Shown piece after piece: positions 21,459-41,233 of a DNA stretch of 64,000 bases. Position numbers and translations under genes: made by a program. The stretch covers positions 62,001 through 126,000 of the forward strand of contig NZ_JAGPXE010000011.1 of the NCBI RefSeq assembly GCF_018070075.1, written 5' to 3'. Under the pieces are notes generated by a model. The model ran no database searches and had not been told where the DNA came from. It was given only the letters and a program-made list of their open reading frames with translations. The stretch comes from Saccharopolyspora endophytica. Lineage in GTDB: Bacteria; Actinomycetota; Actinomycetes; Mycobacteriales; Pseudonocardiaceae. Within the stretch, counting starts at the first letter, position 1. Each line of letters starts with the position of its first letter.

Positions 21459-22283
21459 ATGGCACGCGCTCAACCAGGCGGGCCGGAGCCGGCTTCCGAG
21501 GAACGCGACGACCTCCGCCGCCACGGCGTGCGCGCAACCGCCGACAACCTGCCGGTGCTGCGCGACGAAGTGGACGAGTGGGCCCGCGCCGCGGGGCTCG
21601 AAGACGGGATCGTCGAATCGTTGGCGTTGGCCACCTACGAGGCGATGGCCAACGCCGTCGAGCACGCTTACGGCGGCGCTTGCGGAGTTCTCGACGTGGA
21701 CGCGGTCCTCAGTGGAACCGGGGTCGAGGTCGCCGTGACCGACCACGGCACGTGGCGCGCACCGGATGACAGCGACGATCAGCGCAGGCGCGGCCTGCCG
21801 CTCGTCGAGCGGCTCGCCGACGAGGCGGTGGTGACCTCCGGGGAGCACGGCACCCGGGTGCGGATGCGCTGGAGCACCTCGGAGCCGCGAAACGACGCCG
21901 CGGCGCCGCGGATGCTTGAGTCCGACGTGGACGGTGCGAGCCGTCCACCTCGGACTCGTGGCCCGCTGATCACATCACCGCAGCGTGCGTCCGGTTCCTC
22001 GCCAGATCATCCCCTCGCGCGTGAGCGCGCGGGGGTCGAGCTGGTTGCGAGCGTCGACGAGGACCGGTGCCCGCATCACCTCGGCGACCTTCGCCCAGTC
22101 CAGCACCGCGAACTCCGCCCAGTCGGTCAGCAGCACCACGACGTCAGCGTCCTCCGCGGCCAGGTACGGATCGGCGACGCACCGAATCCGCTCCACCTCG
22201 GACCGCTCCGCGCACGTCGGGTCGTAACCGCGCAGTCGCGCGCCCAGGTCGGACAGCATCCGCGCCACCGCGAGGGCCGGTGA
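21459..22283 (+). CDS. HATPase anti-sigma factor kinase (RsbW-like); C-terminus doubtful
   Basis: The first 145 residues form a complete HATPase_c anti-sigma domain: N-box YEAMANAVEHAYGG, G1 box VTDHGTWRAP and G2 box RRGLPLVERLADE. It should bind a stress sigma factor and phosphorylate the STAS antagonist. ATGAGGAC precedes ATG 21459 (a GTG at 21396 overlaps the STAS stop). The frame does not end after the domain but continues for about 125 codons through a strong hairpin and antisense into the UDP-glucose dehydrogenase gene. A TGA at 21917-21919 in a neighbouring frame would give a natural end, so a frameshift is suspected. Confidence 0.75.
   Translation: MARAQPGGPEPASEERDDLRRHGVRATADNLPVLRDEVDEWARAAGLEDGIVESLALATYEAMANAVEHAYGGACGVLDVDAVLSGTGVEVAVTDHGTWRAPDDSDDQRRRGLPLVERLADEAVVTSGEHGTRVRMRWSTSEPRNDAAAPRMLESDVDGASRPPRTRGPLITSPQRASGSSPDHPLARERAGVELVASVDEDRCPHHLGDLRPVQHRELRPVGQQHHDVSVLRGQVRIGDAPNPLHLGPLRARRVVTAQSRAQVGQHPRHREGR
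21918..21957. terminator. Long bidirectional hairpin between convergent genes
   Basis: GAGTCCGA-C-GTGGACGG pairs with CCGTCCAC-C-TCGGACTC over two 8-base stems with one C/C mismatch and a 6-base loop. It stands where the anti-sigma gene should end and just beyond the UDP-glucose dehydrogenase stop, so it probably ends both transcripts. Confidence 0.65.
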
Positions 22284-23264
22284 TTCGCGCAGGTCGCCGG
22301 TGCCCGCCTTGAACGTCAGACCGAGCAGACCGATCCGCGAGCCCGACACGTCACCGCCGCAGCAGTCCACCACCTTGCGCACCACCCGTGCCTGGTGGTG
22401 CGCGTTCGCGCGGACGGCGGCGCCCAGCAGCGGAAACCCCACGCCTGCGGAATCGGCGGTGTGGAGCAGGGCTGCGGTGTCCTTCGGCAGGCAGGAGCCT
22501 CCCCAGCCCGGCCCGGCGCTCAGGAACGACGGCGCGACGCGGTGATCGCGCTTCATCCCCTCGGTGACCACGTCGATGTCGCCGCCGGTGCGCTCGCAGA
22601 GCTCGGCGAGGTCGTTGACGTAGGAGAGCTTGGTGGCCAGGAAGCCGTTGGCGGCGTACTTGACGAGTTCGGCGCTGACCGGGTCGATCAGCACCGCGCG
22701 CGCGTCCAGCGGGTCGTAGAGCGAGGCCACGCGTTCGGCCGCCTGCTGCTCCTCGGCACCGACCACGACGCGGGCCGGGTGCAGGAAGTCCTGGACCGCG
22801 AAGCCCTCGCGCAGGAACTCCGGGTTGCTGACCACGGCTACGTCCTCGCGCCCCAACAACCGGGTGAGGCGCATGGCCGTTCCCACCGGCACGGTCGACT
22901 TGGTGACCACCACCGCTCCGCGCGGCAGCAGCTCGCGGACCTCGTCGGCGACGGTTTCCACGGCGCTGAGGTCGGCTGCGCCGTCGGCGCCCATCGGTGT
23001 CGGCAGGCACAGGAACAGGATCTCGGCCGCGGCGACGGCCCGCGCGCTGTCCCGGGTGAATCGCAGGGAGCCTGCGGCCACCGCTTCCGAGACGAGCTCG
23101 TCGAGGTCGGGCTCGCGGATCCCCACCTCCCCCCGCGCCAACTTCGCGATCTTGTCCCCGTCGACGTCGCAGCAGGTCACGTCGTGGCCGAGCCTGGCCA
23201 GGCACGCGCCCGTGGTGAGGCCGACGTAGCCGCAACCGATCACGACGACCCGTTCCGCATCCAT
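21975..23264 (-). CDS. UDP-glucose 6-dehydrogenase
   Basis: The 429-residue enzyme oxidises UDP-glucose to UDP-glucuronate with two NAD+. The N-terminal Rossmann motif GCGYVGLTTGACLA is at residues 8-21, the NPEFLREG block near 151-158, the lysine/asparagine block ELVKYAANGFLATK near 203-216 and the catalytic cysteine in GWGGSCLPKD near 255-264. The third (UDP-binding) domain with FKAGTGDLRESPAL is intact. GGAGGAG precedes the ATG. It is the last gene of the minus-strand glycan operon that begins at 28070 and would supply UDP-glucuronate, also the substrate of the UXS-like enzyme at 41379. Confidence 0.93.
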   Translation of the reverse strand: MDAERVVVIGCGYVGLTTGACLARLGHDVTCCDVDGDKIAKLARGEVGIREPDLDELVSEAVAAGSLRFTRDSARAVAAAEILFLCLPTPMGADGAADLSAVETVADEVRELLPRGAVVVTKSTVPVGTAMRLTRLLGREDVAVVSNPEFLREGFAVQDFLHPARVVVGAEEQQAAERVASLYDPLDARAVLIDPVSAELVKYAANGFLATKLSYVNDLAELCERTGGDIDVVTEGMKRDHRVAPSFLSAGPGWGGSCLPKDTAALLHTADSAGVGFPLLGAAVRANAHHQARVVRKVVDCCGGDVSGSRIGLLGLTFKAGTGDLRESPALAVARMLSDLGARLRGYDPTCAERSEVERIRCVADPYLAAEDADVVVLLTDWAEFAVLDWAKVAEVMRAPVLVDARNQLDPRALTREGMIWRGTGRTLR

Positions 23265-23292
23265 CCGCTCCTCCTGCGAAAACCCCTCGCCA

Positions 23293-24021
23293 TCACAAGG
23301 TTTCGAGCTCCGCGAGCACCGGTGGTGGCCGGTCCTCCCGCAGCCGCGTCGCAGGTGCGCACCGTGGCGAATCCCCGCGCTGCCCGGTGTCGGCACCGAT
23401 GCGCGGGTCCGCCCGGACGCACTCGATCACCCTGTCCACGTCCGCGCCGACCGCACGGCACAGTTCGGCCAGCTCGTGGAAGTACTCGCGCTCCACTTCG
23501 AGGAGCCCGTTGGTCGCGTGCAGCACCAGGTCGGCGCTGTCGAGGTCGCAGTGCAGCGGCGGCACGGGCACACCCGCCAGGACCACGTCGGCACGCACCA
23601 AGGCCTCGGCGTCGTCGGCGCCGAGCACGGCGTAGTCGGCACTCAGGAAGTCCTCCAGCGCAGAGCCTTCTCGCAGCAGCTGCGGGTGGCTCACCACCGG
23701 CCTGCCCAGCGCCGCCTGGAGATCCCGGGTGCACTCCCAGGGCGGGAGCGCGCAGTTGATCACGGAGCTGCCCGGTGGGGTGGTGACCTCATCGGCTCCG
23801 CAGACGAACACGGCATCGGGATCGGCCAGCTCGCCGAAGCTCAACGCACCGCTGCGGCGCAGGCTCCGCACCAGGTCCTGCAGCCGCGGTTCGCTCGCCG
23901 GCACCGCCGGGTCCGGGCGGGCGCAGCTCACCCGGAGACCGCTCCAGGCCAGTCCGGTGGCGACCGCGATGGCGGTCAGCCCGTCACCCAGCACGCGGGC
24001 GCGCAGTTCTCTCACGGCCAT
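23293..24021 (-). CDS. Degenerate UDP-glucose dehydrogenase paralogue (pseudoenzyme)
   Basis: A 242-residue protein that resembles the first two domains of the neighbouring UDP-glucose dehydrogenase: SHPQLLREGSALEDFLSADYAVLGA aligns with SNPEFLREGFAVQDFLHPARVVVGA, and DLVLHATNGLLEVEREYFHELAELC aligns with ELVKYAANGFLATKLSYVNDLAELC. The glycine-rich cofactor motif is eroded (VLGDGLTAIAVATG), the active-site lysine is replaced by His, and the cysteine-bearing third domain is absent. Its ATG overlaps the end of the SDR gene by 10 bases, so it is translated within the operon. It is probably non-catalytic, perhaps a regulator or scaffold. Confidence 0.7.
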   Translation of the reverse strand: MAVRELRARVLGDGLTAIAVATGLAWSGLRVSCARPDPAVPASEPRLQDLVRSLRRSGALSFGELADPDAVFVCGADEVTTPPGSSVINCALPPWECTRDLQAALGRPVVSHPQLLREGSALEDFLSADYAVLGADDAEALVRADVVLAGVPVPPLHCDLDSADLVLHATNGLLEVEREYFHELAELCRAVGADVDRVIECVRADPRIGADTGQRGDSPRCAPATRLREDRPPPVLAELETL

Positions 24022-24698
24022 GACGACTCCTCCGAGTGGCACACGACGAGCTCGCGGACCTCGCAGCCGACCGGCTGCCGCAGTGCGAACAGCACCGCTT
24101 CGGCCACGTGCTCGGGACGGTTGAGCTTGGCGTCCTGCGGTGGCTTGTACTGCTCGGGCCTGCCGTCGAAGAACGCGGTGCGCATCCCGCCCGGTACCAG
24201 CATCGTCACCCCGACCCGGCCGCTGAGCTCGGCGGCCAGCGCCCGGGACAGGCCGACGACGCCGAACTTCGAGGCGCAGTAGGCGGAGGCGTCGGGCAAG
24301 CCCTTGAGCCCGAGAGTGGACGAGCAGGTGACCACCGTGCCCCGGCTCTCCTCCAGGTACGGCAAGGCGGCCCGCACGACGGCGGCCGTCCCCAGCAGGT
24401 TGACCTCCACCACGCGTTCCCAGTCCTCGGCGGGAACCGACTGCAGCGAACCGCAGGCATCGGTGCCCGCGGCGGTGAACACACCGTCGAGACCGCCGGC
24501 TGCGTCGGCCATCTCGCGCACCGCGCGCTCGGCCGCGCGTCGGTCGGCCAGGTCGACCTGGGCGTGCTTCACCGGAGCCGAGGGCACCTCGCGGTCGAGG
24601 ACCAGCGGGGTACCACCGGCCGCGATCACCGCCTCGACGACCGCCGCACCGAGGCCCGACGCGCCTCCGGTGATCACGACATTACCCGGCCCGTTCAT
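24012..24698 (-). CDS. Classical short-chain dehydrogenase/reductase
   Basis: The 228-residue protein has TGGASGLGAAV (10-20) for cofactor binding, the acidic LDREV end of strand 2, FTAAGTDACGS instead of the usual NNAG, SSTLGLKGLP with the catalytic serine and YCASK (about 142-146). It is too short for a nucleotide-sugar epimerase such as HldD. It overlaps hldE by 17 bases and the degenerate dehydrogenase by 10 bases, so it belongs to the glycan operon and may reduce a sugar intermediate; the substrate is unknown. Confidence 0.85.
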   Translation of the reverse strand: MNGPGNVVITGGASGLGAAVVEAVIAAGGTPLVLDREVPSAPVKHAQVDLADRRAAERAVREMADAAGGLDGVFTAAGTDACGSLQSVPAEDWERVVEVNLLGTAAVVRAALPYLEESRGTVVTCSSTLGLKGLPDASAYCASKFGVVGLSRALAAELSGRVGVTMLVPGGMRTAFFDGRPEQYKPPQDAKLNRPEHVAEAVLFALRQPVGCEVRELVVCHSEESSWP

Positions 24699-26043
24699 GG
24701 AGTTCCTCCCGTTTGACGTCCACTTCCAGCAGGTTCCGCAAGATCCGCGTGGTCGAGTACCCGCCGACGAGCGGGACCCGGACGATTTCGCCGCCGTACT
24801 GCTCGACCACCTTCGCCTCGGGCAGCCGAGACGGTTCGTAGTCGCCGCCCTTGACCCACACGTCCGGTCTGAGGGTGGCCAGCAGCTCGCACGGGGTCGT
24901 CTCCTCGAAGACCGCGACTGCGTCGACGGATTCGAGCGCCTCCAGCAGGCACTTGCGGTCCTCCACCCCCACCAGCGGACGCGGAGCGCCCTTGAGCCTG
25001 CGCACCGAGGCGTCGGAGTTCAGGCAGACGACGAGGGCGTCGCCGAGCCGCCTGGCCTGGTTGAGCAGGTCGACGTGGCCAGGGTGGAGCAGGTCGAAGC
25101 AGCCACCTGCCGCGACGAGCCTGCCGCCGCGCTCCCGGACCCGCTCGACCACGTCCAGACCGTTCTCGGACGCCGGTCGGTCGTCCACTGTCCAGGCACC
25201 GGCGCCGCCGGAAGCCACGAACCTGCTGGCCGCCAGCACCGCGTCGGCGACGGCGTCCGATGTGGTCTCGCCGCGGGCCAGCGCGAGGGCGACGGCGACG
25301 GCGAAAGCGTCTCCGGCCCCGCAGGTGTCGGTCGTGGTGTCCAGCTGCGGCGCTGCGACGAGCTCGCAGCTCGGTGCGAGGGCGGCGCCGCGCTCGCCCA
25401 TGGTCACGGCTACCGCTGCGCACTCCCACTCGCGCCACAGCGCCATCGCGCCCGCCGGTTGCGCGGTCATGCCGCTGAACCGCATCGCTTCGGCTTCGTT
25501 GGGCACCACGAGGTCCGCCCGGGCCACCGGCGCGGCTCCTCGCGGGTGCGGGTCCCAGATCATCGGTGTGCCTGGCGGCAGGCGGGAGAGCTCGTGGCGC
25601 AGCCGGGAGTTGCTCGCGGCTCCGCGACCGTAGTCGGCGATGAGCACGGCATCGGCGCTGCGCAGTTCCCGCACGACCGCCGGCCCCGGGACCACGTCCG
25701 GCACGGCTCCCGCGCCGGAGTCCAGCCGCACGACCGATTGGCCGCCGGCGCGCACCCGGGTCTTGCTGGGCGTCCCACCGGTGAACGGCAGGTCCACCAA
25801 GCGGACGCCGGCCGGCAGCAGGCGGTCGATCTCGTACCCGGCGGGATCGGCACCGCGGCCGCTGATCAAGGTCACCTCGATGCCCTGGTCCGCGGCCAGC
25901 GCCGCGGCGAGCGCGGCTCCGCCGGGCCTCCCGCGTCGCGACTCGACGTCGACCACCGGCACGGGCGCGTCGGGGCACAGGCGGGAGGCGCTCCCGGTCA
26001 GGTCCAGGTCCAGCAGGGCGTCGCCCACGATGACGACCTTCAC
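24682..26043 (-). CDS. hldE: Bifunctional heptose-7-phosphate kinase / heptose-1-phosphate adenylyltransferase (HldE-like)
   Basis: The 453-residue protein has an N-terminal PfkB/ribokinase domain (1-290) with GGAALAAALAA, GGTPSKTRV and the catalytic DTCGAGDAFA (about 237-246), and a C-terminal nucleotidyltransferase domain (from about 310) with GCFDLLHPGHV (HxGH) and VYVKGGDY-like VWVKGGDYEPS. This is the layout of HldE, which phosphorylates D-glycero-D-manno-heptose 7-phosphate and later joins the 1-phosphate to AMP. Together with GmhA (36257) and the GmhB domain (38058) it completes ADP-heptose synthesis in this window. Confidence 0.88.
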   Translation of the reverse strand: MKVVIVGDALLDLDLTGSASRLCPDAPVPVVDVESRRGRPGGAALAAALAADQGIEVTLISGRGADPAGYEIDRLLPAGVRLVDLPFTGGTPSKTRVRAGGQSVVRLDSGAGAVPDVVPGPAVVRELRSADAVLIADYGRGAASNSRLRHELSRLPPGTPMIWDPHPRGAAPVARADLVVPNEAEAMRFSGMTAQPAGAMALWREWECAAVAVTMGERGAALAPSCELVAAPQLDTTTDTCGAGDAFAVAVALALARGETTSDAVADAVLAASRFVASGGAGAWTVDDRPASENGLDVVERVRERGGRLVAAGGCFDLLHPGHVDLLNQARRLGDALVVCLNSDASVRRLKGAPRPLVGVEDRKCLLEALESVDAVAVFEETTPCELLATLRPDVWVKGGDYEPSRLPEAKVVEQYGGEIVRVPLVGGYSTTRILRNLLEVDVKREELHERAG

Positions 26044-26058
26044 GTCGACCTCCTCGGG

Positions 26059-27066
26059 TCACCGGCGCACTTCGTGCAGGAGCGCCGTCCAGTCGGTCAA
26101 GAACCTCTCCAGCGAGTACTGGCTCAGCACCGCTCGCCGGGCCGCCTCACCGGCTTCCCGGGCGCGGTCAGGATCAGCGGTGAAGGCGGCGACCGCGTCG
26201 ATCAGCGCGTCCATCCGCGTGGAGACGACACCCGCTTCGGGTGGCACGGCCTCGGAGACCTCGGTGGCCGCGACGGCCACGACCGGCATGCCCAGGTGCA
26301 TGGCCTCCAGCAGCGCCAGCCCGAGCGAGGTCCACCGGTAGGGGTGCAGGTACACGCGGCGGGCCGCCAGTTCGGCGTGCATCTTCGGCTGCGGCAGGTC
26401 TTCGTGGGGCGTGATGCGGTCGCAGCCCAGCACCTGCGGGAGGTCCCGCACCTGCATGCCGAACACGTCCAGCGGCGCCCCTCCGCTCAATCGGGGCAGC
26501 AGGTCGGTTCCGGCGATGTGACTGCGCCGCACCGGTTCGTTGACCACCACCCCGGCGTGCGGCACGGTTCCGGTCCAGCGGTGGCCGGGATCGACGATCC
26601 CGTGCTCGATGACGGTGTTCGGCGCTCGCCCGTTGTCCCACCACATCTGGTTGAAGTGGGTGACGTGCGCGATCGGGATGTCGTCGCGGTCGGCCACGGG
26701 ATGCCGGTCGGGGCCCGCGGGACCGCGCGGCGTGTCGTGCTCCACGTAGACGGCCGGGAGGTCGACGCCCGGTCGGCGGCCGGTCCACAGCCGGGTGAGC
26801 TCGAGCTCGTCGGGGCGTTGGAGCACCACGACGTCGATGCGCTCGTCGTGCAGCCGGCCGGGTTCGACCTCCACGGCGTTGTCCGGCCACGTGACGGTCT
26901 GCGAGCGCCCTCTCCCGTCGGGTCCGCGATCGGCGGTGGCGGGCACCAGGTAGGTGTGCGGCCCGTGCACGAACGACGTCGTCCACGACCCGTGCCTGTG
27001 CCACACCAGGATTCGCAGTCCTCCCTGCGAATTCGGCGTGGTGCCGGGTGTTACGGAGCTCGTCAT
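26059..27066 (-). CDS. GT4-type glycosyltransferase
   Basis: The 335-residue protein is a GT-B glycosyltransferase: ILVWHRHGSWTTSFVHGPHTYLVP at the N-terminus and, in the C-terminal domain, YLHPYRWTSLGLALLEAMHLGMPVVAVAATEV (about 240-272), the donor-binding E-x7-E-like region of GT4 enzymes. The ATG overlaps the GT9 stop (ATGA), giving translational coupling. Its acceptor is unknown; it should work in the cytoplasm on a lipid-linked or nucleotide-derived glycan made with the heptosyltransferase next to it. Confidence 0.82.
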   Translation of the reverse strand: MTSSVTPGTTPNSQGGLRILVWHRHGSWTTSFVHGPHTYLVPATADRGPDGRGRSQTVTWPDNAVEVEPGRLHDERIDVVVLQRPDELELTRLWTGRRPGVDLPAVYVEHDTPRGPAGPDRHPVADRDDIPIAHVTHFNQMWWDNGRAPNTVIEHGIVDPGHRWTGTVPHAGVVVNEPVRRSHIAGTDLLPRLSGGAPLDVFGMQVRDLPQVLGCDRITPHEDLPQPKMHAELAARRVYLHPYRWTSLGLALLEAMHLGMPVVAVAATEVSEAVPPEAGVVSTRMDALIDAVAAFTADPDRAREAGEAARRAVLSQYSLERFLTDWTALLHEVRR

Positions 27067-28070
27067 GACGTCACCTCCGCGACCGCGGCGGCGACCTCTT
27101 CCGGGGTCACCAGCGTCAGGCACGGGTGGCCGGGCACCGGGCAGTACCGCGCGCGGGTGTTGCGGCACGGGGCGAACTGCTCGCCGAGCACGACCCGCGG
27201 AACGCCGTAGGGAGCCCAGCGGGCCGCGCTGACCACGGGTGCGAACAACGAGACCACGGGTGTTCCCACCGCCGCGGCAAGGTGGGCAGGCCCTGTGTTG
27301 GGCGCGACGACGGCGTCGGCGCCGTCGAGAACCGCCGCCAGCTCCGGGAGGTCCGTGCGCCCGCCGAGGTCGATGCCGGAGTGCCCGGCCACGTGCGCGG
27401 TGAGCTCCCGATCGGCCGGTGCGCCCGTGACGACCACCGCCCGTCCGGCCGCGGCCAGTTCGCGCACCGCCCCTCGGCAGCGGAACATCGGCCACTCCCG
27501 CGCGGGGACCGAAGCGGCGGGGTGCACCACGACGTAACGCCGCCGGCCGACGAGGTGACCGACGTCGGGGAGCGGGCGGCGCACCGCCAACCTCCCGTCA
27601 TCGCCGTCCGGCAGTTCGAATCCGGCGGCGCGCGCCAGCGACAGCGCGCGTTCGGGCTCGGCCGGATCACCCTCGACCCGGTGCCGCACGTCCAGCAGCG
27701 ATCCCGGGTAGTCCTCGCTGATCGCCGCGATCCGCTCCACACCGGCCATCCGCAGCAGCAGCGCCAGCGGCAGCGCGCTCTGGTGGAACGAGGTGAACAC
27801 CACCGCCGAATCGGCGTCGATCTTGCGCAGCACCTCGGAGAACTCGTGGATCGCCGATTCGGTGACCGGCGGTGGTGCCGGGTCGATCCACGGCGCGCAC
27901 CAGGTCACGACCTCGTCCACGCCGGGCAGCATCTCCGCCGCCGCCGCACCGCGCGGTCCGGCGAGCATGACCACGGATTCGGCGTGCGCCGCCACGGCCC
28001 GCACCGCCGGACCCGCGAGCAGCACGTCGCCGAGGTTGTCCTGGCGTGCGACCAGCACCCGGCCCTTCAC
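27063..28070 (-). CDS. GT9 heptosyltransferase-like protein
   Basis: The 335-residue protein belongs to the ADP-heptose:LPS heptosyltransferase family GT9. RVLVARQDNLGDVLLAGPAVRAVA (about 4-27) has the typical LGD motif, and the C-terminal half has VVHPAASVPAREWP, a TGAPAD motif and APNTGPAHLAAAVGTPVVSLFAP, the GPxH signature of the donor site. GTG 28070 is preceded by GAGGTGGGA. It heads the operon ending at UDP-glucose dehydrogenase and, with a stress-type promoter at 28209, is divergent from the GT2 block. Confidence 0.87.
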   Translation of the reverse strand: MKGRVLVARQDNLGDVLLAGPAVRAVAAHAESVVMLAGPRGAAAAEMLPGVDEVVTWCAPWIDPAPPPVTESAIHEFSEVLRKIDADSAVVFTSFHQSALPLALLLRMAGVERIAAISEDYPGSLLDVRHRVEGDPAEPERALSLARAAGFELPDGDDGRLAVRRPLPDVGHLVGRRRYVVVHPAASVPAREWPMFRCRGAVRELAAAGRAVVVTGAPADRELTAHVAGHSGIDLGGRTDLPELAAVLDGADAVVAPNTGPAHLAAAVGTPVVSLFAPVVSAARWAPYGVPRVVLGEQFAPCRNTRARYCPVPGHPCLTLVTPEEVAAAVAEVTS

Positions 28071-28208
28071 CGTCCCACCTCGGCGTGGTGCCGCAGGCGG
28101 GGAAGAACGGGTGCTGCGTGCGTAACCGGAACGAGCACAGCTGCGCCTCCCGCGTGTCGTCCTGCTCGGTGCGATCGGCGTCCGCATCGGCGACGCCCGT
28201 CCATACCG

Positions 28209-28235
28209 CTACCCAGCGAAGCGGCTCCCCTACAC
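28209..28235 (-). promoter_or_regulatory. Stress-sigma promoter candidate for the heptose-glycan operon
   Basis: On the minus strand GTGT, 17 bases, GGGTAGC. The block GGGTAGCGGTAT is identical to that in front of the carbamoyltransferase operon (41293-41304). It lies 139 bases before the GT9 start. The 28071-28375 intergenic region (305 bases) holds this and the plus-strand promoter at 28308 and no gene that I can support. Confidence 0.4.
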
Positions 28236-28307
28236 ATGTGCGCACGAGTTTCGCCTCCGCAGGAGTCCACCCGGGGCGATCGAGCACGCTGTGCGAGCGA
28301 CTGCGGA

Positions 28308-28331
28308 GTTTTTCGCGCCCGGTGCGGGTAA
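28308..28331 (+). promoter_or_regulatory. Stress-sigma promoter candidate for the GT2 block
   Basis: GTTT (28308-28311), 14 bases, GGGTAA (28326-28331), 44 bases before the GT2 start. This is an exact SigB/SigF-type element. Confidence 0.52.
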
Positions 28332-28375: not shown

Positions 28376-29233
28376 ATGGATCGACGAACCAACACCGACG
28401 TGGTGATCGCGACGCGCAACCGGCGCGAAGAGCTGCTCCGCACCGTGCGCAACCTCCTCGACCTGCGTCCCCGCCCGCGGATCGTCGTGGTCGACAACGC
28501 CTCGACCGACGGCACCGCCGAAGCGGTCGCGGAGCTGCACCCGCGCGTGGAGCTGATCCGCGCGCCGCACAACCTCGGGGCAGCCGCGCGCAACCTCGGT
28601 GTGCTGAGCTGCCGGGCCGAGCACGTCGCCTTCAGCGATGACGACTCGTGGTGGGAGCACGACGCGCTGCCGCGCGCCGAACAACTCTTCGCCGCCCACC
28701 CCGACGTGGGGTTGATCGCGGGCAAGACCCTGGTCGGCGAGCTCGAGCGCACCGATCCGGTCAACGACCTCATGGCGCGCTCACCGCTGCGGAGCTCGGC
28801 GGAGCTGCCAGGCCCGCGAGTGCTGGGTTTCACGGCGTGCGCAGCCGTGGTCCGGAGGCGAGCTTTCCACGAGGTCGGCGGCTTCGACCCGATGCTCTTC
28901 TTCGGCGCCGAGGAGAAGCTGCTCGCGTGCGATCTCGCGGCTGCGGGATGGGAACTGGTCTACGCCGAGGACGTCGTCGCTCACCACCACCCGTCCGACG
29001 CCCGGTTGAGCCGTTCCGAGCGGGAAGCCCTGGAACTGCGCAACAATCTGCTGATCTCCTGGATGCGCAGATCCCCGTCGGCGGCGGCGTCCGAGACGCT
29101 GCGCGCCCTGCGCCGCTCCCGGCCTGCGGTCGCCGGTGCGCTGCGGCGGTTCCCGATGGCGATGCGCCGCAGACGGCGGCTCCCCCGGCGAGTGGAGCGC
29201 GAGCTGACCGCCGTGGAGTCCCAGACGTCATGA
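28376..29233 (+). CDS. GT2-family glycosyltransferase (first of a pair)
   Basis: The 285-residue protein has DVVIATRNRREELLRTV and IVVVDNASTDGTAE at the N-terminus (nucleotide-sugar part of GT-A), FSDDDSWWEHD as the DxD motif near 82-90, and EEKLLACDLAAAGW with the catalytic base region. GGGAG precedes the ATG. The neighbour at 29649 is a clear paralogue (VVIATHERREELLRTL), with a small GAF-like protein between and ATGA overlap. They probably add sugars to the same surface glycan. Confidence 0.88.
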   Translation: MDRRTNTDVVIATRNRREELLRTVRNLLDLRPRPRIVVVDNASTDGTAEAVAELHPRVELIRAPHNLGAAARNLGVLSCRAEHVAFSDDDSWWEHDALPRAEQLFAAHPDVGLIAGKTLVGELERTDPVNDLMARSPLRSSAELPGPRVLGFTACAAVVRRRAFHEVGGFDPMLFFGAEEKLLACDLAAAGWELVYAEDVVAHHHPSDARLSRSEREALELRNNLLISWMRRSPSAAASETLRALRRSRPAVAGALRRFPMAMRRRRRLPRRVERELTAVESQTS

Positions 29234-29646: not shown

Positions 29647-29648
29647 GC

Positions 29649-32710: not shown

Positions 32711-33604
32711 ATGCGAGCGCTGGTGACGGGGTGGGCGAGCTTCCTGCACGGGGAAGCCACCGCCGGTGACGTCGCGAGTCTGCACCGGGTGGCCGCACGG
32801 CTGGCCACCGACGGCATCGACCACGACATCGTGCTCAGCCCCGCATTCGCCCCAGGCGCAACGCACTTCGACGACGCTGATCCGAACGACTACACCCACG
32901 TCATCTTCTGCTGCGGGCCCGCGCACGGCTGGCAGGTCGACGAGCTGCACCACCGGTACTCGGGGTGCACCCGGATCGCCGTGGGCGTCTCCGTGATCGA
33001 CCCGGAATCGCCCGCCACCAAGGGCTTTCACGTGCTCCTGCCGCGAGACGGGCCGGGCCTGCGCGCCTCACCGGACCTCGCCGCCGGTCTGGACCCTCGC
33101 CGTACCCCCGTGGTGGGAGTCGTGCTCGCACCGGCGCAACCGGAGTACGCCGACCGCACCAGGCACGGCGAGACGCACGAGATCCTGCAGCGCTGGTTGG
33201 CCGGGCTGGACGCAGCGCGAATCCCGCTGGACACAAGGCTGGCTCGCGGCGACTGGCGGCTGTGCTCGACGCCCGAAGCGTTCGCCGCCCTCGTCGAGCG
33301 CACCGACGTCGTGGTCACCACTCGTCTGCACGGACTCGTTGTCGCGCTGTCCGCGGGCGTTCCCGCGCTCGCCGTCGATCCCGTCTCCGGCGGGGGCAAG
33401 GTCACCGCGCAGGCGGGCGCGCAGGACTGGCCCGCGGTCATCGGCGCCGACGAGCTCTCGGAAACCGAGCTGGATCGCTGGTGGCGGTGGTGCAGGTCCG
33501 ACGAGGGAGCCTGCCGAGCCGCTGCGGCCCGCCGCTCGGCAGGCACCGATTCGAGTCCGCTGGACGCGCTGGCACGCCACCTGCACGCCGCCGCGCTGGG
33601 GTGA
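32711..33604 (+). CDS. Polysaccharide pyruvyl transferase family protein
   Basis: The 297-residue protein has the layout of PS_pyruv_trans proteins: VTGWASFLHGEATAGDVASL at the N-terminus and the C-terminal signature DVVVTTRLHGLVVALSAGVPALAVDPVSGGGKV (about 200-232). It probably transfers pyruvate from PEP onto a sugar of a surface polysaccharide, or is a related transferase. It starts just after the terminator at 32661, so it should have its own promoter, and it converges with the DUF2267 gene. Confidence 0.78.
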   Translation: MRALVTGWASFLHGEATAGDVASLHRVAARLATDGIDHDIVLSPAFAPGATHFDDADPNDYTHVIFCCGPAHGWQVDELHHRYSGCTRIAVGVSVIDPESPATKGFHVLLPRDGPGLRASPDLAAGLDPRRTPVVGVVLAPAQPEYADRTRHGETHEILQRWLAGLDAARIPLDTRLARGDWRLCSTPEAFAALVERTDVVVTTRLHGLVVALSAGVPALAVDPVSGGGKVTAQAGAQDWPAVIGADELSETELDRWWRWCRSDEGACRAAAARRSAGTDSSPLDALARHLHAAALG

Positions 33605-34119: not shown

Positions 34120-35244
34120 TCAGTGCTGCCCGGACTCGCGCTGCTCGCGGCGGCGCCGGGCGCGGCGTTCCCGCTCGCGCTTGCTGTAGGTGGCCCGCCG
34201 CACCGCTGACTCGGTCTCCAGGCTCGACCCCAGGGCCCCCGCGACGGTGCCCATCGAGCTCGCCAACCAGGACAGACCCAGGTAGTCCAGAGGGGTCGCC
34301 GGGTGCCCGAGCCGACCGCTGAGGTATTCAGGGCTGATGACCGTCGCCGAGCCCAGCGCGGTCAGCCCGAACAGCAGCACGTACATGCACAGCACGCCGA
34401 TGGACACCGTCAGCAACGTCGCGGCGTTGTACATCCGGGTCTTGTGCACCGCCGCGCCGCCACCGGGACGCTCCCACAGGCTGTTGTGGACGATCAGCCA
34501 GCCGACCATCACCGCCACGGCGAAGAGGTTGATCAGGACCAGGCGCACCGGTGCGAGGCTGTCGGCCAGGCTCCAGATGCTGGGGAAGAACACGCCGAAG
34601 GCGGCCGTCCCGGCAGCCGCCGCCACCGCGCGCGACAGCCCGGGCACCAGCCACCAGGGCCGGTTGTCGCGGACCATGCCGAACAGCAGGCGCATCCTGC
34701 CGACCCGGCCAGGCAGCACCAGGTTCGAGTCGATGTTCTCCTCGCTGGATCGCACCTGCCGGATTCGAACGCCGAACACGCCCCAGGCGCCGGAGTGGTA
34801 CCCGTCGCGCTCGCGGTCCGATGCGATCCCCAGCGTTTCCCTGGCGAGCAGACCGACCAGGTGCACCACGACGCGGCGGGCGTAGGGCAGCAGCCGGATC
34901 GAGCCGATCGCCGGCACCGACGCCAAAGCCGCTCCGCTGCTCGTGTCCGCGTCGGCGACCACCGCTCCCTCGGGTTCGATCCTCGGGAGGTCGGTCAGGC
35001 AGACCAGCAGGTCCCAGTGCTCGCTGCGCCCCTTCTCCTCGGCCTTCTCGGCGATGTCGATCGTGCCGTCGTCGCCCAGCGGCAGTTCCTCCGAACTCGC
35101 CAGCACGCGCCAGTCGACGTCCTCGGAGACCCGGGAGCGGAGTTGGTCCGGGACCTCCTCCGCGAGCCGCTCGGCGATCTCGGTCGGAACACCGGGATCG
35201 GCGACGATGCCGACGGTGACCCTCCTGTCCACGTCCGAACCCAT
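34120..35244 (-). CDS. Membrane protein of unknown function
   Basis: The 374-residue protein has a soluble N-terminal half (about 1-190) that starts VTVGIVADPGVPTEIAERL and contains WDLLVCLTDLPR, then four predicted membrane segments (about 205-225, 232-250, 280-305, 315-335) and a very basic tail with repeats of Arg and Glu (KRERERRARRRREQRESG). The N-terminal half looks like a binding domain, but I cannot name the family. Possibly linked to the glycan genes; function is open. Confidence 0.72.
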   Translation of the reverse strand: MGSDVDRRVTVGIVADPGVPTEIAERLAEEVPDQLRSRVSEDVDWRVLASSEELPLGDDGTIDIAEKAEEKGRSEHWDLLVCLTDLPRIEPEGAVVADADTSSGAALASVPAIGSIRLLPYARRVVVHLVGLLARETLGIASDRERDGYHSGAWGVFGVRIRQVRSSEENIDSNLVLPGRVGRMRLLFGMVRDNRPWWLVPGLSRAVAAAAGTAAFGVFFPSIWSLADSLAPVRLVLINLFAVAVMVGWLIVHNSLWERPGGGAAVHKTRMYNAATLLTVSIGVLCMYVLLFGLTALGSATVISPEYLSGRLGHPATPLDYLGLSWLASSMGTVAGALGSSLETESAVRRATYSKRERERRARRRREQRESGQH

Positions 35245-35333
35245 CGAATCTCGCTCTCGTCACATCGGCCACGACGGGGAATTTCCACCTCGGGGAGCGG
35301 CGAAACCCGCAACGGCCGACGAGCGAGCTCGGC

Positions 35334-36260
35334 TCACGCCAGCCGCACCGCTCTGCGCGCAGCGTCGATCACCTGCCCGGTCGTGATGGCCAGCAGTCCG
35401 GGATCTGGGTCGGAGGCGAAGGTGTCGCCGCTGCGCCCGTGCCACAGCGCGACGTGCCGGGCGTCGGCAGGCGGCCCCCAGCAGCGGGGCGCGACCGGTC
35501 CGAACAGCACCACCGACGGCGTCCGGAAAGCGCTGGCCAGGTGCGCGATGCCGGTGTCGCCGCAGATCAGCAGGCGGGCGTGGGCCACCAGGGCGGCCAG
35601 CTCGCGCAACCCGGTGCGTCCGGCCAGCACGGAGTTCGCCGGCAGCCCCGCGAGCTCGGCCACCCGCGCAGCGCGCTCGTGCTCGGATTCGGAACCGGTG
35701 AGCACCACGTCGAAATCCGCGTCCGCGGCCCAGCGCGCCACCTCGGCGTAGCGCTCCACCGGCCACAGCCGAGCGCCGTGGCTGGCACCCGGGTGCACGA
35801 TCGCCACGCCGGCTCGGGGGCGGTTCAGCGGCGTCGGCAGCAGCAGGTCGTCCGGGTCGGCGTCGATGTCGTAGTGCCGCAGCAGCCGGCACCAGCGCTG
35901 CCGCTCGTGCTGCTCGGCCTCCCAGTCCGGGCCGGCGACGGGGGGAGCCGCCGGGTGCCGGTGGGACAGGACCCGGCGCGCTCCCGTCGAACACACCGCG
36001 CGCACCGACTCCGGCCCGCTGCCGTGCAGGTTCACCGCGACGTCCGGGCCGGACCGCTGCCAGCGGAAGTCCACCAGCCCGCCGGTGGGCACCCACTCGT
36101 CCACCTCGGGCAGCAGGGGCAGCAGCTCCGCCAGCGGTTCGGGTGCGGCCAGCAGCACCCCGTGGTCGGGAAAAGCGCGCCGCAGGCCGCGCAACGCGGG
36201 CACCGCGGTGAGCAGGTCGCCCAGGCCGAGGGCCCGGAGCACGAGAACCGTGTCGATCAC
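35334..36260 (-). CDS. GT9 heptosyltransferase-like protein
   Basis: The 308-residue protein is a second GT9 enzyme: VLVLRALGLGDLLTAVPALRGLRRAFPDH (LGD motif, about 5-33), VHPGASHGARLWP, TGSESE and ICGDTGIAHLASAFRTPSVVLFGP (about 225-250), the heptosyltransferase donor signature. Its GTG overlaps the gmhA stop (GTGA). It is the last gene of the operon that begins at the carbamoyltransferase and is the probable user of the ADP-heptose made by its neighbours. Confidence 0.88.
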   Translation of the reverse strand: MIDTVLVLRALGLGDLLTAVPALRGLRRAFPDHGVLLAAPEPLAELLPLLPEVDEWVPTGGLVDFRWQRSGPDVAVNLHGSGPESVRAVCSTGARRVLSHRHPAAPPVAGPDWEAEQHERQRWCRLLRHYDIDADPDDLLLPTPLNRPRAGVAIVHPGASHGARLWPVERYAEVARWAADADFDVVLTGSESEHERAARVAELAGLPANSVLAGRTGLRELAALVAHARLLICGDTGIAHLASAFRTPSVVLFGPVAPRCWGPPADARHVALWHGRSGDTFASDPDPGLLAITTGQVIDAARRAVRLA

Positions 36261-36832
36261 CGACGTTCCGGTACCCGATCGATCGTCAGCGCGTCGAACT
36301 CACCGCACAGCGCGTGGATCAGCGCCAGGTGGATCTCCTGCACCGTGGCCACGCCGGGCGCTTCCACGGCGATCACGTCATCGCAGACCGCGGCGAGATC
36401 GTTGGGAGCAGGCCCGGTCAACGCCCAGGTCAGCACACCCAGCTCCCGCGCGGTCTTGGCAGCGGCGAGCACGTTCTGGCTGCGGCCGCTGGTGGACAAC
36501 GCGACCAGCACATCACCGGAACGACCGTGCGCGCGCACGGCCCGAGCGAAGACCTCCTGCTCGCCGTAGTCGTTGAGCGTGGCGGTGAACGCCGAGGTGT
36601 CGGCGTGCAGCGCGATGGCCGAGTACGGCCTGCGATCGCGGAGGAACCGCCCGGTCAGCTCACCCGACAGGTGCTGCGCTTCCGCAGCGCTGCCACCGTT
36701 CCCGCAGGTCAGCAAGCGCGCTCCGGCCGTGAGGCGGCCCGCGAGCGTTCCCGCCCAACTCCGCAGCTTCGGCGCTGTGGAGCTGATCTGCCACGCGGCT
36801 GCGCCCAGGTCTTGGAAGTGCTGCTCGATCAC
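36257..36832 (-). CDS. gmhA: Sedoheptulose-7-phosphate isomerase (GmhA), SIS domain
   Basis: The 191-residue SIS-domain protein has LLTCGNGGSAAEAQHLSGELTGRF (about 39-62), the GNGGSAxxAxHxxxE signature of GmhA, and ALSTSGRSQNVLAAAKTARELG (about 110-131). GmhA turns sedoheptulose 7-phosphate into D-glycero-D-manno-heptose 7-phosphate, the first step to ADP-heptose. The GTG start is preceded by GGGAGGGGGAG and overlaps the preceding stop. A DiaA-like role is unlikely given the neighbours. Confidence 0.9.
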   Translation of the reverse strand: MIEQHFQDLGAAAWQISSTAPKLRSWAGTLAGRLTAGARLLTCGNGGSAAEAQHLSGELTGRFLRDRRPYSAIALHADTSAFTATLNDYGEQEVFARAVRAHGRSGDVLVALSTSGRSQNVLAAAKTARELGVLTWALTGPAPNDLAAVCDDVIAVEAPGVATVQEIHLALIHALCGEFDALTIDRVPERR

Positions 36833-38061
36833 GGTGCTCCCCCTCCCGGCGCGGCGGCGACCGCGGCCCGCCTGGACCGCGCCGAACGCACCTGCTGGTA
36901 GATGTCCTCGGCTTCGCCGACGAGCCGATCCCACCCGTAGCGAGCCCGAACGCGGTGCGCGCCTGCGGTTCCCAGCTCCGCGCGCAGGCCCGGCCGATCC
37001 AGCAGCTCCCGCACGGCACGGGCGGTCGCCGTCGGATCGTGCGGTGGCACGTGCAGTCCCGTCCTGCGGTCGACGACGGTGTCGAGGTGACCCCCGACCG
37101 CGCTGACGACGACCGGAACGCCGCAGGCCATCGCCTCCGGCGGCACGGTGCCGAACGGCTCGTACCACGGCACGCTGACGACGACGTCGACCGACCGGTA
37201 GAGGTCGGGCGCGTCGTCGTGGGGCACTGGGCCGAGGAACTCGGTGCGGTCGGCGACACCGGATTGACGCGCCACCGCCTGCAACCGGTTGACCTCCGGA
37301 TCGTCAGGCCACTCCCGCTCCGGCGGCCCGCCTGCGATGAGCAGCCGAGCGTCGGGGAGATCGCGCATCGCCCGGATCATCACGTCCACGCCCTTGCGCT
37401 CGACCAGCCTGCCGATGCTCAGGATTCGCGGGGCGCCCCGCTTCGGCTCGCGCGGCGCGGCCGGGGAGAACCGGTCGACGTCGATGCCGCACGGCAGCAC
37501 GGCGGTGCGTTCCGGTGCCACGCCCATCTCGGCGAGCTCACCGACCTCGTCGGTGCAGGTGGCGATGACGAGGTCGGCCGCGCGGGCGATCTGCGCTTCC
37601 AGCTCGACGCGGCGCGGCGGGCTGGTGTCCTTCGCCCCCTGCTCGCGGCGCTTGACGCGGCCCAACGCGTGGAAGGTCTGCAGCACCGGCACGCCGAGCC
37701 CCGCGGCGCCGCGCTGCGCGGCGAGCCCGCTCATCCAGAAGTGCGCGTGCACCAGGTCCGGCAGTCGACGCCCCCAGTCCTCGGCGAGCCGCGCGGCGAA
37801 GGCGTCCATGTGGGGCAGCAGTTCGTCCTTGGGCACCGGCGCGGACGGGCCGGCCGGCACGTGCCGGACCGTGAAGCCCTCGTCCGTGCGCACCCGCTCC
37901 GGGAGCGTCGGCGAGTCGCGGCGGGTGTGCACGACGACGTCGTGGCCGCGCCGGGCGAGCCCGGTCGCCAGTTCGGCCACCTGCACGTTCTGCCCGCCGG
38001 CGTCGGCTCCCCCGAGAGCCGCCAGCGGGCTGGCGTGCTCGGAAACCATGTCGATCCTCAT
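36829..38061 (-). CDS. GT4 glycosyltransferase
   Basis: The 410-residue protein is a GT-B enzyme of family GT4 with MRIDMVSEHASPLAALGGADAGGQNVQVAELATGLARRGHDV at the start (sucrose/trehalose-synthase-like GGxxxxV acceptor loop) and, in the C-terminal domain, ILSIGRLVERKGVDVMIRAM and VVVSVPWYEPFGTVPPEAMACGVPVVVSAVGG (about 320-350), with the EPFGxxxxEAM donor signature. ATGA overlaps with the preceding gene. It probably acts on the heptose-containing glycan. Confidence 0.88.
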   Translation of the reverse strand: MRIDMVSEHASPLAALGGADAGGQNVQVAELATGLARRGHDVVVHTRRDSPTLPERVRTDEGFTVRHVPAGPSAPVPKDELLPHMDAFAARLAEDWGRRLPDLVHAHFWMSGLAAQRGAAGLGVPVLQTFHALGRVKRREQGAKDTSPPRRVELEAQIARAADLVIATCTDEVGELAEMGVAPERTAVLPCGIDVDRFSPAAPREPKRGAPRILSIGRLVERKGVDVMIRAMRDLPDARLLIAGGPPEREWPDDPEVNRLQAVARQSGVADRTEFLGPVPHDDAPDLYRSVDVVVSVPWYEPFGTVPPEAMACGVPVVVSAVGGHLDTVVDRRTGLHVPPHDPTATARAVRELLDRPGLRAELGTAGAHRVRARYGWDRLVGEAEDIYQQVRSARSRRAAVAAAPGGGAP

Positions 38062-39599
38062 CGCGGCACCTCCTGCCGGACGGGACGCCGCGTCGCCGCG
38101 CGCACCCGGCCGTCCCGCAACACGCGGGCCACAGCCGCCTCGAGGGTCGGTGCCACCTCGGCTTCGACCAGCGCCCTGGTCGTCTCCTCCGTCCTGGTCC
38201 GCTCGGTGGGCACCAGGATCGCCCTGGCGCCCGCGGCCAGCGCTGCCGCGACGTCCGCTCCGGTGTCGCCGATGACCACGCAACTCCGCGGCAGCACGCG
38301 CAACCGGGCGGCGGCTCGTTCGATGAGCCCGGGTTTCGGCTTGCGGCAACCGCATCCGTCTTCCTCGTCGTGCGGGCACCACTGCCAGATGTCGAACGGC
38401 CCCAAAAGCCGCTGCACCGCTCCGTTGACGGCGGCGACGTCCTCGTCCCGGAGGAGTCCGCGCGCCACTCCGGACTGGTTGCTCACCACACCGATCGGGA
38501 TTCCGGCCACCCGGAGCCGGTCCAGCGCTTCCCGCGCTCCGCTGACCGGACGCACGCGGGCCGGGTCACCGTTGTAGGGGACGTCGTGGACGAGCGTGTC
38601 GTCCCGGTCGAACAGCACCGCAGCAGGCATTTCCCTCGCGCCCGCGCGCACTTCCACCTCGCCGCGCAGTCGGTGCAGGCACGCTGCGGGCGGGATCAAG
38701 ACGCTGGTGACCAGCATTCGAGCCACCTCGTCCGGCGTGCCCGGTCCCGGAGCGATCCGGCGGGCTGCGAACTCAGCGGTCAAACCGAGCCACACGGCAC
38801 CACCGCAGGCGGCGGCTCGGCGCGCGCCGAGCGCCGAAGCCACGAGCGCGATCCCGCCTGCCACCGTGATGGCCAGGTGGCGGCGGATCCTGCCCCGGCC
38901 TTCACCGATCCGCATGCGCCACCGCTTTCCGTACTTGCGGCGCATGATGGCGTTGTCGGCGTTGCCCCGTTGCGCGCGCACGCTGGCGAAGAAGCCGGCG
39001 GGGCGCGCGGGGTGGCTGGTCACACGCGCGCCGTTGACCAACCGCCACCCCGCGGCCTGCACCCGCAGCGCCAGGTCGGCGTCCTCCCGGAAGGCGCGCC
39101 GGAACTCCTCGTCGAAGCCCCCGCAGGCCGACAGCACCTCGCGCCGGTAGGCCATGTCCGCAGTGATCCACAGCGCGTCGGCGAGCGCGGCGGTGTCGCG
39201 TTCGCCATCGGTGGGCCGCCGCTCGGTCGGCAGCGGGACGACGATGTCGGCCTGGCAGGCCCCCACGTCCGGACCGACGTCGAGGTCGTCCTCGATCCGC
39301 TCGCGCCAGTCCGCGGCGGGCACGACGTCGTCGTCCAGGAACACGACCCACTCGGCGTCCGCTTCGCGCCAACCGATGTTGCGCGCTGCGGCAGGACCGC
39401 GTCCGCCGGAACGCACGACGCGGATCGGCAGCTCGCTGCGCGGTAGCGGAAGCGGTTCGCGCGGGCCGGGCCGGTCGTCGACCAGCACGACCTCGCGGGG
39501 ACCGGGGCCGCGCCCGGTGTCGAGGGCGGCCAGGGTTCCGGCGAGGCTGTCCCGGCCCATCGTCGGGATGACCACCGCGTAGTCGCCGCGGGCGGTCAT
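38058..39599 (-). CDS. Fusion: GT2 glycosyltransferase + GmhB-type heptose-bisphosphate phosphatase
   Basis: The 513-residue protein has two enzymes. Residues about 1-240 are a GT2 domain with VVIPTMGRDSLAGTL, VVLVDDRPG, VVFLDDDVVP (DxD) and FREDADLALRVQAAGW; a short hydrophobic region follows. Residues about 330-490 are a HAD-IIIA phosphatase: LFDRDDTLVHDVPYNGDP (nucleophile Asp), VSNQSGVARGLL and the zinc motif CPHDEEDGCGCRKPKPGL, diagnostic for D-glycero-D-manno-heptose-1,7-bisphosphate phosphatase. ATGA overlaps both neighbours. The fusion joins heptose synthesis and transfer in one chain. Confidence 0.9.
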   Translation of the reverse strand: MTARGDYAVVIPTMGRDSLAGTLAALDTGRGPGPREVVLVDDRPGPREPLPLPRSELPIRVVRSGGRGPAAARNIGWREADAEWVVFLDDDVVPAADWRERIEDDLDVGPDVGACQADIVVPLPTERRPTDGERDTAALADALWITADMAYRREVLSACGGFDEEFRRAFREDADLALRVQAAGWRLVNGARVTSHPARPAGFFASVRAQRGNADNAIMRRKYGKRWRMRIGEGRGRIRRHLAITVAGGIALVASALGARRAAACGGAVWLGLTAEFAARRIAPGPGTPDEVARMLVTSVLIPPAACLHRLRGEVEVRAGAREMPAAVLFDRDDTLVHDVPYNGDPARVRPVSGAREALDRLRVAGIPIGVVSNQSGVARGLLRDEDVAAVNGAVQRLLGPFDIWQWCPHDEEDGCGCRKPKPGLIERAAARLRVLPRSCVVIGDTGADVAAALAAGARAILVPTERTRTEETTRALVEAEVAPTLEAAVARVLRDGRVRAATRRPVRQEVPR

Positions 39600-41233
39600 G
39601 ACCGCTCACTCCCGCGGTGGACCACGAACGGCCCGATCACGAGCAGGTCGATCGGCGACGCTCCGAAGCACTCCAAGGCGTCGACCGGGCTGTCGACCAT
39701 GGGGCGTCCCGCGGTGTTGAAGCTGGTGTTGATCAGCGCCGGCACACCGGTGCGAGCCGCGAAGGAGTCGAGCAGCCTGGCCACCAGCGGTTCGGCGGCC
39801 CGGTCGACGGTCTGCGGCCGCGCGGTGCCGTCGATGTGCACGGCGGCGGGTATGCGGTCCTGCCACTGCGGCGTCACGTCGTGCACGAACAGCATGTGCG
39901 GGCTGCTCTCCGGCCCCCGGGTGAACAGCTCACCGGCGCGTTCTGCCAAGACCATGGGTGCGACCGGGCGGAACTGCTCGCGGCCCTTGATGTCGTTGAG
40001 GCGCTCGACGTTGTCGGCGTTGCCGGGGTGGGCGAGCAGGGATCGGTGTCCGAGCGCACGCGGGCCGAACTCGCTGCGCCCCTGGAACCAGCCCACCGAC
40101 GCGTCGCGCGCCAGCGCTTCGGCTGCGACCTCGGCGACGTCGCTCGGGCGTTCGTAGGCGAGGTTCGCGGTGCGGAGGGCGTTCTCGATCTCCTCGTCGC
40201 TCCACCCGCGCCCGAGGTCGGCGCCGGGCATCGGCCTGATGGGCTCGTCGTGCTGCGCCGCGACCTGCAACGCTGCGCCGAGCGCGGTGCCCGAGTCACC
40301 CGCCGCGGGTTGCACCCACACCTCGTCGAACGGTCCTTCGCGAACGATCCGGGTGTTGGCCACGCAGTTCAACGCCACTCCCCCGGCCATCGCCAACCGA
40401 CGTTCCCCGGTCGCCTCGTGCAGCCACCGCGCGAGATCGAGCAGCACTTCCTCCACCCGGGCCTGCACGCTCGCGGCGAGCTGAGCGTGCTTGTCCCCCA
40501 GCCGTTCCTGAGCGCTGCGACGGGGAGCCCAGCGCTGCCAATCGATGGGCTCGATCTCGTAGTGCCCATCGCCGGTGCTGCGCACCAAGTCCCTGAGATC
40601 CGGCAGGAACGCGGGTTCGGCGTAGGAGGCCAGCGCCATCACCTTGTACTCGTCGCTGGAACGGCGGAAGCCCAGGTGCTCGGTCAGCTCCTCGTACATC
40701 AGGCCGAGCGAGTGCGGCAGTCGCTGCTCGGTCAACGTGGTAAGCCGGCCACCGGTGCACCGTCCGGCAAGTCCTGAGGTGCTCTCACCGCGGCCGTCGG
40801 CGGTGAGCACGGCGCAGTCGCCGAAGGGCGCGGCGAGCGCGGCGGAAGCGGCGTGCGCCACGTGGTGCGGCACGAACACCACCGCATCGGGATCGAGCCC
40901 GGGCAGCGCGGTGGCCAGGAAGTGCGGCGCCCGTTGGGCGAACGTCGTGCGCAACCACTCCCACCCGGGATCCAGGCCCTCCACGGTCTCGTCCACCAGC
41001 GCCGGGTCGTAGGAGAAGGCCACCGCGTCCAGATCGGACGCCTCGATCCCGCCCTGGCGCAAGCACCACGCCGCGGCCTGCTCGGGCTGTTCCCACGCCG
41101 AGAACGGGACGGGCGTCTTGCCGTGCTTGCGGCGGGAGAAGCGCTCCTCCTCTGCCGCGGCCTCGGTGCGGCCGTCGACCACCAGTGCGGCGGCCGGGTC
41201 GTGGAAAACGGCGTTGATCCCGAGGATTCGCAC
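39596..41233 (-). CDS. NodU/CmcH-family carbamoyltransferase
   Basis: The 545-residue protein begins VRILGINAVFHDPAAALVVDG and has AAEEERFSRRKH, HHVAHAASAALAAPF (metal-binding His pair), ADGRGESTSG and the C-terminal GRSEFGPRALGHRSLLAHP and NTSFNTAGRPMVDSP, all typical of O-carbamoyltransferases that use carbamoyl phosphate and ATP. GTG 41233 follows GGGAGG. It heads the operon carbamoyltransferase, GT2-GmhB, GT4, GmhA, GT9, all joined by 4-base overlaps, and has a stress-type promoter. It probably carbamoylates a sugar of the glycan. Confidence 0.92.
   Translation of the reverse strand: MRILGINAVFHDPAAALVVDGRTEAAAEEERFSRRKHGKTPVPFSAWEQPEQAAAWCLRQGGIEASDLDAVAFSYDPALVDETVEGLDPGWEWLRTTFAQRAPHFLATALPGLDPDAVVFVPHHVAHAASAALAAPFGDCAVLTADGRGESTSGLAGRCTGGRLTTLTEQRLPHSLGLMYEELTEHLGFRRSSDEYKVMALASYAEPAFLPDLRDLVRSTGDGHYEIEPIDWQRWAPRRSAQERLGDKHAQLAASVQARVEEVLLDLARWLHEATGERRLAMAGGVALNCVANTRIVREGPFDEVWVQPAAGDSGTALGAALQVAAQHDEPIRPMPGADLGRGWSDEEIENALRTANLAYERPSDVAEVAAEALARDASVGWFQGRSEFGPRALGHRSLLAHPGNADNVERLNDIKGREQFRPVAPMVLAERAGELFTRGPESSPHMLFVHDVTPQWQDRIPAAVHIDGTARPQTVDRAAEPLVARLLDSFAARTGVPALINTSFNTAGRPMVDSPVDALECFGASPIDLLVIGPFVVHRGSERS

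Follow-up and report, generated by a model that had tools for sequence, protein, structure and literature searches.

The 64,000-nucleotide stretch of Saccharopolyspora endophytica DNA analyzed here (the window; contig NZ_JAGPXE010000011.1, positions 62,001 to 126,000) carries a sugar gene cluster. On sequence evidence we take it to be cwg, the actinobacterial 'cell wall glycan' operon, in the form it has in Saccharopolyspora. In the window its genes form two operons, which are one operon in related species. The whole reading is that the cluster would make an ADP-D,D-heptose-based glycan, is preceded by a SigB/SigF-type promoter, and was divided by tandem duplication and complementary loss; we consider it probable. 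We computed the gene content, the match to cwg, the one-operon state of relatives, the conservation of a motif before the operon and the relatedness of the two leaders. Gene labels and coordinates are in Table 1.

Streptomyces coelicolor cwg comprises 12 genes (SCO6179–SCO6190) predicted to specify a cell wall glycan, and is vancomycin-induced and partly sigma-E dependent, according to the available excerpts of PMC6767563, PMC5839063 and PMC5882110; the first of these places it in the sigma-E envelope-stress regulon. In similarly partial sources, cwgA is raised by salt (PMC13011467), as is an 'ADP-heptose:LPS heptosyltransferase' gene of salt-tolerant Frankia (PMC5563000; LPS, lipopolysaccharide). 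We searched the SCO6179 sigma-E promoter, as given in the excerpt of PMC6767563, in 297 genomes of the family around genome G305, allowing up to three mismatches. It was present in eight, exactly in one (G592), and in five of the eight (G592, G646, G423, G657 and G541) it is immediately followed by a cwg-like cluster. All 12 positions, Epi-Carb-GT2-GmhB-GT9b-GT4b-GT4a-GmhA-HldE-GT9a-GT2c-GT2d, are present in four of these clusters; the G657 contig ends after GmhB. We take the window set as cwg because this 12-gene order agrees with the cwg operon and with what SCO6183, SCO6186 and SCO6187 are annotated as. What weighs against this is that no cwg homologue was found in the stretches taken from the other three genomes (G641, G471 and G650, the last 2.6 kb long). 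The promoter copies at G641:C19:276943 and G471:C1:2206501 have two and three mismatches and no nearby cwg genes.

All 12 positions of these Streptomyces-type loci have a homologue in the window, and gene order is kept inside each half of the cluster, not overall. The window differs from Streptomyces cwg in that GT2 and GmhB are fused; in having a UDP-glucose 6-dehydrogenase (UGD), a truncated UGD-like protein (UGDx) and a short-chain dehydrogenase (SDR), none of which tblastn found in the 20 kb taken from G592; in its SigB/SigF-like motif rather than a sigma-E promoter; and in its split into two operons. At the GmhB gene position, SCO6182 is annotated 'dehydratase'.

The cwg gene set was found in many actinobacterial genera, answering a search proposed in a preliminary description of the window, which had overlooked the cwg identity, the wide genus spread and the one-operon state of relatives. 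GT2-GmhB matches occur in 34 of 60 family genomes and 43 of 296 phylum genomes, counts that take in the genome of the window itself as well as partial matches, to GT2 or to GmhB only. A new heptose system was rejected as an interpretation, since the gene set matches cwg. The literature searched yielded no structure for the cwg product, and the portions of it available held nothing relevant that linked heptose to a cell wall glycan or to Saccharopolyspora, or that dealt with operon duplication and differential loss. The gene set is already known and chemically uncharacterized; what goes beyond the literature found is the operon split in Saccharopolyspora and the SigB/SigF-like motif before Carb.

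HldE is carried by 9 of 22 genomes of the genus, the window's own included. In six the genes form a single operon, Carb-GT2GmhB-GT9b-GT4b-GT4a-GmhA-HldE-SDR-GT9a-(UGDx)-UGD (in G369 UGD is present only as pieces, at a contig end, and in G362 two genes are each in two pieces). In the other three, the window genome and its nearest relatives G356 and G025, the genes are divided between Carb-GT2GmhB-GT4a-GmhA-GT9a (operon 1) and GT9b-GT4b-HldE-SDR-UGDx-UGD (operon 2). Each half keeps the one-operon gene order, so that together they de-interleave it, and in trees of either half the three split genomes form one clade inside the genus. Both leaders hold a block related to that before Carb in one-operon genomes. 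The preliminary description's shared promoter block stands as a prediction, with GGGTAGCGGTAT before each operon; in related species the two operons together make up a single one.

Tandem duplication with complementary loss most likely fits best and explains most of the split, although the remnants at the boundaries are short. The single operon would have been duplicated together with its promoter, and the two copies would then have lost complementary sets of genes. Whole leaders scored above the best of 100 shuffles against one-operon leaders in 12 of 18 comparisons for operon 1 and 13 of 18 for operon 2. Over its final 18 bases, GT2-GmhB agrees with the 3' end of the one-operon GT4b at 17, 17, 17, 16, 14 and 13 positions. 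A mini open reading frame (mini-ORF) precedes operon 2 in all three split genomes (23, 23 and 24 codons) and is possibly a remnant of deleted genes.

An alternative is that the blocks GT9b-GT4b, HldE-SDR and UGDx-UGD were transferred singly to a new location and gained their promoter separately, by copying or acquisition. The moved genes are indeed contiguous pairs in one-operon relatives, and the pyruvyltransferase gene was relocated independently, but this would take three transfers to the same site with gene order conserved. Most spacer comparisons outside the promoter fail to beat shuffles, which suits block moves, but the operon-2 spacer is similar throughout its length to the G374 spacer before Carb (score 92, best of 100 shuffles 54; 44 against 39 without the promoter), and an exact 12-mer is common to both leaders where one-operon relatives differ in the bases after GGGTAG. 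We consider block moves unlikely and prefer duplication and loss.

Several observations count against duplication and loss. Upstream of the promoter alone, operon 2 exceeded shuffles in 4 of 18 comparisons (mainly against G374) and operon 1 in none of 18; downstream alone, the counts were 0 of 18 and 2 of 18. Since spacer homology outside the promoter seldom beats shuffles, a derivation of the mini-ORF from Carb is weakly supported. The putative GT4b remnant varies, at 17 of 18 bases in three relatives and 13, 14 and 16 in the others, and it covers a ribosome-binding site. The position of the pyruvyltransferase gene also fits poorly with simple duplication and loss. Separately, 17 of 19 Amycolatopsis loci (L080, L087, L088 and others) have GT2GmhB-GT9b apart from the remaining genes, with its own promoter motif.

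The sequence GGGTAGCGGTAT has exactly two copies in the 7.17 Mb assembly, one in front of each operon, and its reversed control has none. Operon 1 matches the SigB/SigF-type promoter pattern of GTTT, spacer and GGG at -10. The GTTT-N14-GGGTA site on the GT2c side is shared by the three split genomes; in G374 it is oriented toward the pyruvyltransferase gene. The start signals of the two operons appear to be copies of a single ancestral promoter of stress type. The stress-type promoter block proposed earlier survives as a sequence prediction, but in a degenerate form at operon 2: in all three split genomes GGGTAG is present there with a GTGT -35 element, a 17-base spacer and no GTTT. This degeneracy weighs against the promoter assignment, as does the genome-wide count of the loose motif (28 matches, 14 in the reversed control). 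GGGTAGCGGTAT was also considered as a genus-wide element and rejected: its 16 copies lie in 12 of the 22 genus genomes, five of them at the cluster, all in split genomes, and the other 11 look like chance (three reversed-control matches; we estimate about 0.6 per genome).

A single sigma factor gene in the genome (G000:C29:323019-323687) exceeds the SigBFG cut-off. It follows an anti-sigma-like gene with a HATPase domain, and the motif lies 52–64 bases upstream, a pattern as expected for an autoregulated operon. Adjoining the cluster at 19723-21024 (minus strand) is a gene with GAF and SpoIIE-type phosphatase domains, an RsbU-like make-up, also found near the cluster in G356 (87%) and G025 (75%); its product might feed a SigB/SigF switch.

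We tested for GTTT-N13-17-GGGTA no more than 250 bases from the start of the carbamoyltransferase gene in the 74 usable loci among 91 left after removing seven duplicate stretches. The motif was found in 49 of the 74: in all eight Saccharopolyspora loci and 41 of 66 others. From the remainder of those loci, 0.64 would be expected. We also counted it, with N14-16, before genes that head a transcription unit and genes that follow, in 80 named loci (the best 80 of at least 497; classes judged from cluster genes alone). Of 179 heads 83 have it, and of 598 followers 23, each of them a Carb gene behind Epi (23/30); for other followers the count is 0 of 568. The counts by head gene are 17/17 for GT2GmhB (all separate units of Amycolatopsis), 22/30 for Epi, 23/35 for Carb, 13/22 for GT2c, 6/26 for GT4b, 1/2 for GT4a, 1/28 for the pyruvyltransferase gene and 0/15 for GT2d. 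The motif resembles SigB-family promoters, whose published forms include GGGTAG (PMC8346170, the SigB/SigF consensus source, available in part), and transcription of the operons would start from a promoter of this type.

Some results argue against so general a link. The pattern was defined once the window had been inspected and mostly ends GGGTAG. Before Carb it occurs in 3 of 14 Actinomadura loci and in none of three Streptomyces-like loci. Two further patterns were tested in the 79 of 98 loci that gave upstream regions, with shuffles that keep base composition only. The published, stricter GNNT-N14-16-GGGTAY was not clearly enriched (5/79, 2.4 in shuffles) and was dropped as the cluster promoter form. 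A close variant of the sigma-E site was found before Carb in 0 of 79 loci (2.4 in shuffles), and the site itself, AAC-N16-18-CGTC, was absent from the 300 bases before Epi, Carb and GT9b of the window.

We put forward a broader account tentatively. Streptomyces would have wired the cwg pathway to sigma-E, and the Pseudonocardiaceae, Nocardia and some mycobacteria to general-stress SigB/SigF, with the stress regulon kept where the operon was broken; the product would be a carbamoylated D,D-heptose/xylose glycolipid or oligosaccharide of the envelope, and the Saccharopolyspora split would stem from tandem duplication of the whole operon with complementary loss.

The enzymes named earlier for the window (GmhA, HldE, a GmhB domain, two GT9 proteins, a carbamoyltransferase, GT4, GT2 and UGD) were all recovered by domain searches, and the ADP-D,D-heptose pathway holds as a prediction. 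GmhA would convert sedoheptulose 7-phosphate to D,D-heptose 7-phosphate, the HldE kinase would make the 1,7-bisphosphate, the GmhB domain would then strip the 7-phosphate, and the HldE adenylyltransferase would yield ADP-D,D-heptose, used without epimerization. The motifs of all three enzymes, read by eye from general knowledge of these families, align with solved relatives. The reported lack of the epimerase HldD, which is required for L,D-heptose only, holds as a prediction too: among all proteins of the genome (34 contigs, 99.5% complete) none exceeds the cut-off, the best reaching 124.4 of 274.6 bits.

NCBIfam equivalog cut-offs tell against these assignments. They are missed by HldE (258.8 of 521 for the whole protein, 119.9 of 345 for the kinase domain), GmhA (151.6 of 209.45) and GmhB (108.6 of 178), and by the window GT9 proteins for LPS heptosyltransferases I–III; the HldE adenylyltransferase domain alone passes (TIGR02199, 181.7 of 181.5). 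With most cut-offs missed, the substrates could differ from those predicted. That the enzymes act on other sugars and make no D,D-heptose is nonetheless improbable in our view: the best PDB match of the adenylyltransferase domain is a 'putative cytidylyltransferase', but heptose enzymes are the best matches of GmhA, of the GmhB domain and of the HldE kinase, and the three families co-occur with GT9 genes and stay together in relatives. Both GT9 proteins exceed the Pfam GT9 domain cut-off. A third, weaker GT9 match (36.6 bits) lies elsewhere in the genome (G000:C14:47931-48350, L003).

The UXS-like enzyme of the preliminary description likewise stands as a prediction. In the PDB it matches UDP-glucuronate decarboxylases best (4gll, 310 bits, E 1.6e-91), so that with UGD it could make UDP-xylose by way of UDP-glucuronic acid (UDP-GlcA). 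The two GT9, two GT4 and the GT2 enzymes would build an oligosaccharide, and the NodU/TobZ-type enzyme would carbamoylate the product. The substrates, the sugar product and its envelope location, like the acting sigma factor and the duplication event, are what we infer from sequence, as are the structure and heptose content of the glycan.

The Pseudomonas LPS inner core shares with the window heptosyltransferases and a carbamoyltransferase, WapO, that acts on the heptose-containing core (PMC8005017, available in part). It differs in that the window's host has no LPS and would use D,D- rather than L,D-heptose. WapO presumably belongs to the same protein family as the window carbamoyltransferase. 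Heptose use in actinomycetes extends to secondary metabolites, such as hygromycin B of Streptomyces, made through a heptose pathway. Septacidin of Streptomyces uses a nucleoside diphosphate heptose (excerpt of PMC11461863), and by analogy with its ADP-heptose genes the window set might make a heptose-containing secondary metabolite. The PDB relatives of the carbamoyltransferase do include the antibiotic enzymes TobZ, GdmN and decarbamoylnovobiocin carbamoyltransferase, but no scaffold-forming enzyme appears among the 30 ORF entries scanned with Pfam (about 15.4–46.6 kb of the window), the set is conserved across many genera, and in S. coelicolor it sits in the sigma-E envelope-stress regulon. 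We consider this reading very unlikely and retain the predicted cell wall glycan.

Table 1. Features of the cwg cluster and its surroundings (window coordinates; the named enzymes of the two operons and Epi are all on the minus strand and were found by domain searches of window ORFs; start codons of some genes were chosen by us)
Feature	Position	Strand	Remarks
UGD, UDP-glucose 6-dehydrogenase family	21975-23396	-	End of operon 2
UGDx, truncated UGD-like protein	23293-24042	-	Operon 2
SDR, short-chain dehydrogenase	24012-24698	-	Operon 2; kept in operon by most relatives compared
HldE, heptose 7-phosphate kinase / heptose 1-phosphate adenylyltransferase family	24682-26043	-	Operon 2; kinase and adenylyltransferase domains
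GT4b, glycosyltransferase	26059-27111	-	Operon 2
GT9b, heptosyltransferase-like	27063-28070	-	First full gene of operon 2
Mini-ORF, 23 codons	28067-28138	-	Stop overlaps GT9b start (GTGA)
Promoter-like block, operon 2	28203-28235	-	Second GGGTAGCGGTAT
Promoter-like site GTTT-N14-GGGTA	28308-28330	+	Before GT2c
GT2c, glycosyltransferase	28376-29233	+	Divergent to operon 2
GT2d, glycosyltransferase	29643-30539	+
MFS transporter	30527-31912	-	Near cluster in several Saccharopolyspora
PST, pyruvyltransferase-like gene	32711-33604	+	cwg neighbour in relatives, placed differently here
GT9a, heptosyltransferase-like	35334-36260	-	Final cwg gene of operon 1
GmhA, sedoheptulose-7-phosphate isomerase family	36257-36859	-	Operon 1
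GT4a, MshA-like glycosyltransferase	36829-38061	-	Operon 1; score under MshA cut-off
GT2 fused to GmhB-type heptose-bisphosphate phosphatase	38058-39599	-	Operon 1
Carb, NodU/TobZ-type carbamoyltransferase	39596-41233	-	Operon 1; domain search and PDB relatives
Promoter-like block GTTT-N15-GGGTAG, operon 1	41293-41323	-	Contains GGGTAGCGGTAT
Epi, UXS-like sugar-nucleotide decarboxylase	41379-42329	-	cwg position 1; directly upstream of, and outside, the range first described

UGDx stands beside full UGD in Saccharopolyspora loci, except in G369, where the contig ends. The minus-strand gene at 34120-35244 encodes a 374-residue protein with hydrophobic stretches and no Pfam match; it is found in G025 (78%) and in G356 as fragments only.

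The window holds a system of known kind: a cwg operon that carries a stress-type promoter motif and whose division into two most likely goes back to duplication and loss. This division makes a good candidate for an operon turning into two while its start signals stay related. The cwg operon is a cited target of envelope stress, and naming the likely sugars (D,D-heptose, GlcA/xylose and carbamate), together with the likely SigB/SigF-type control outside Streptomyces, makes its product testable.

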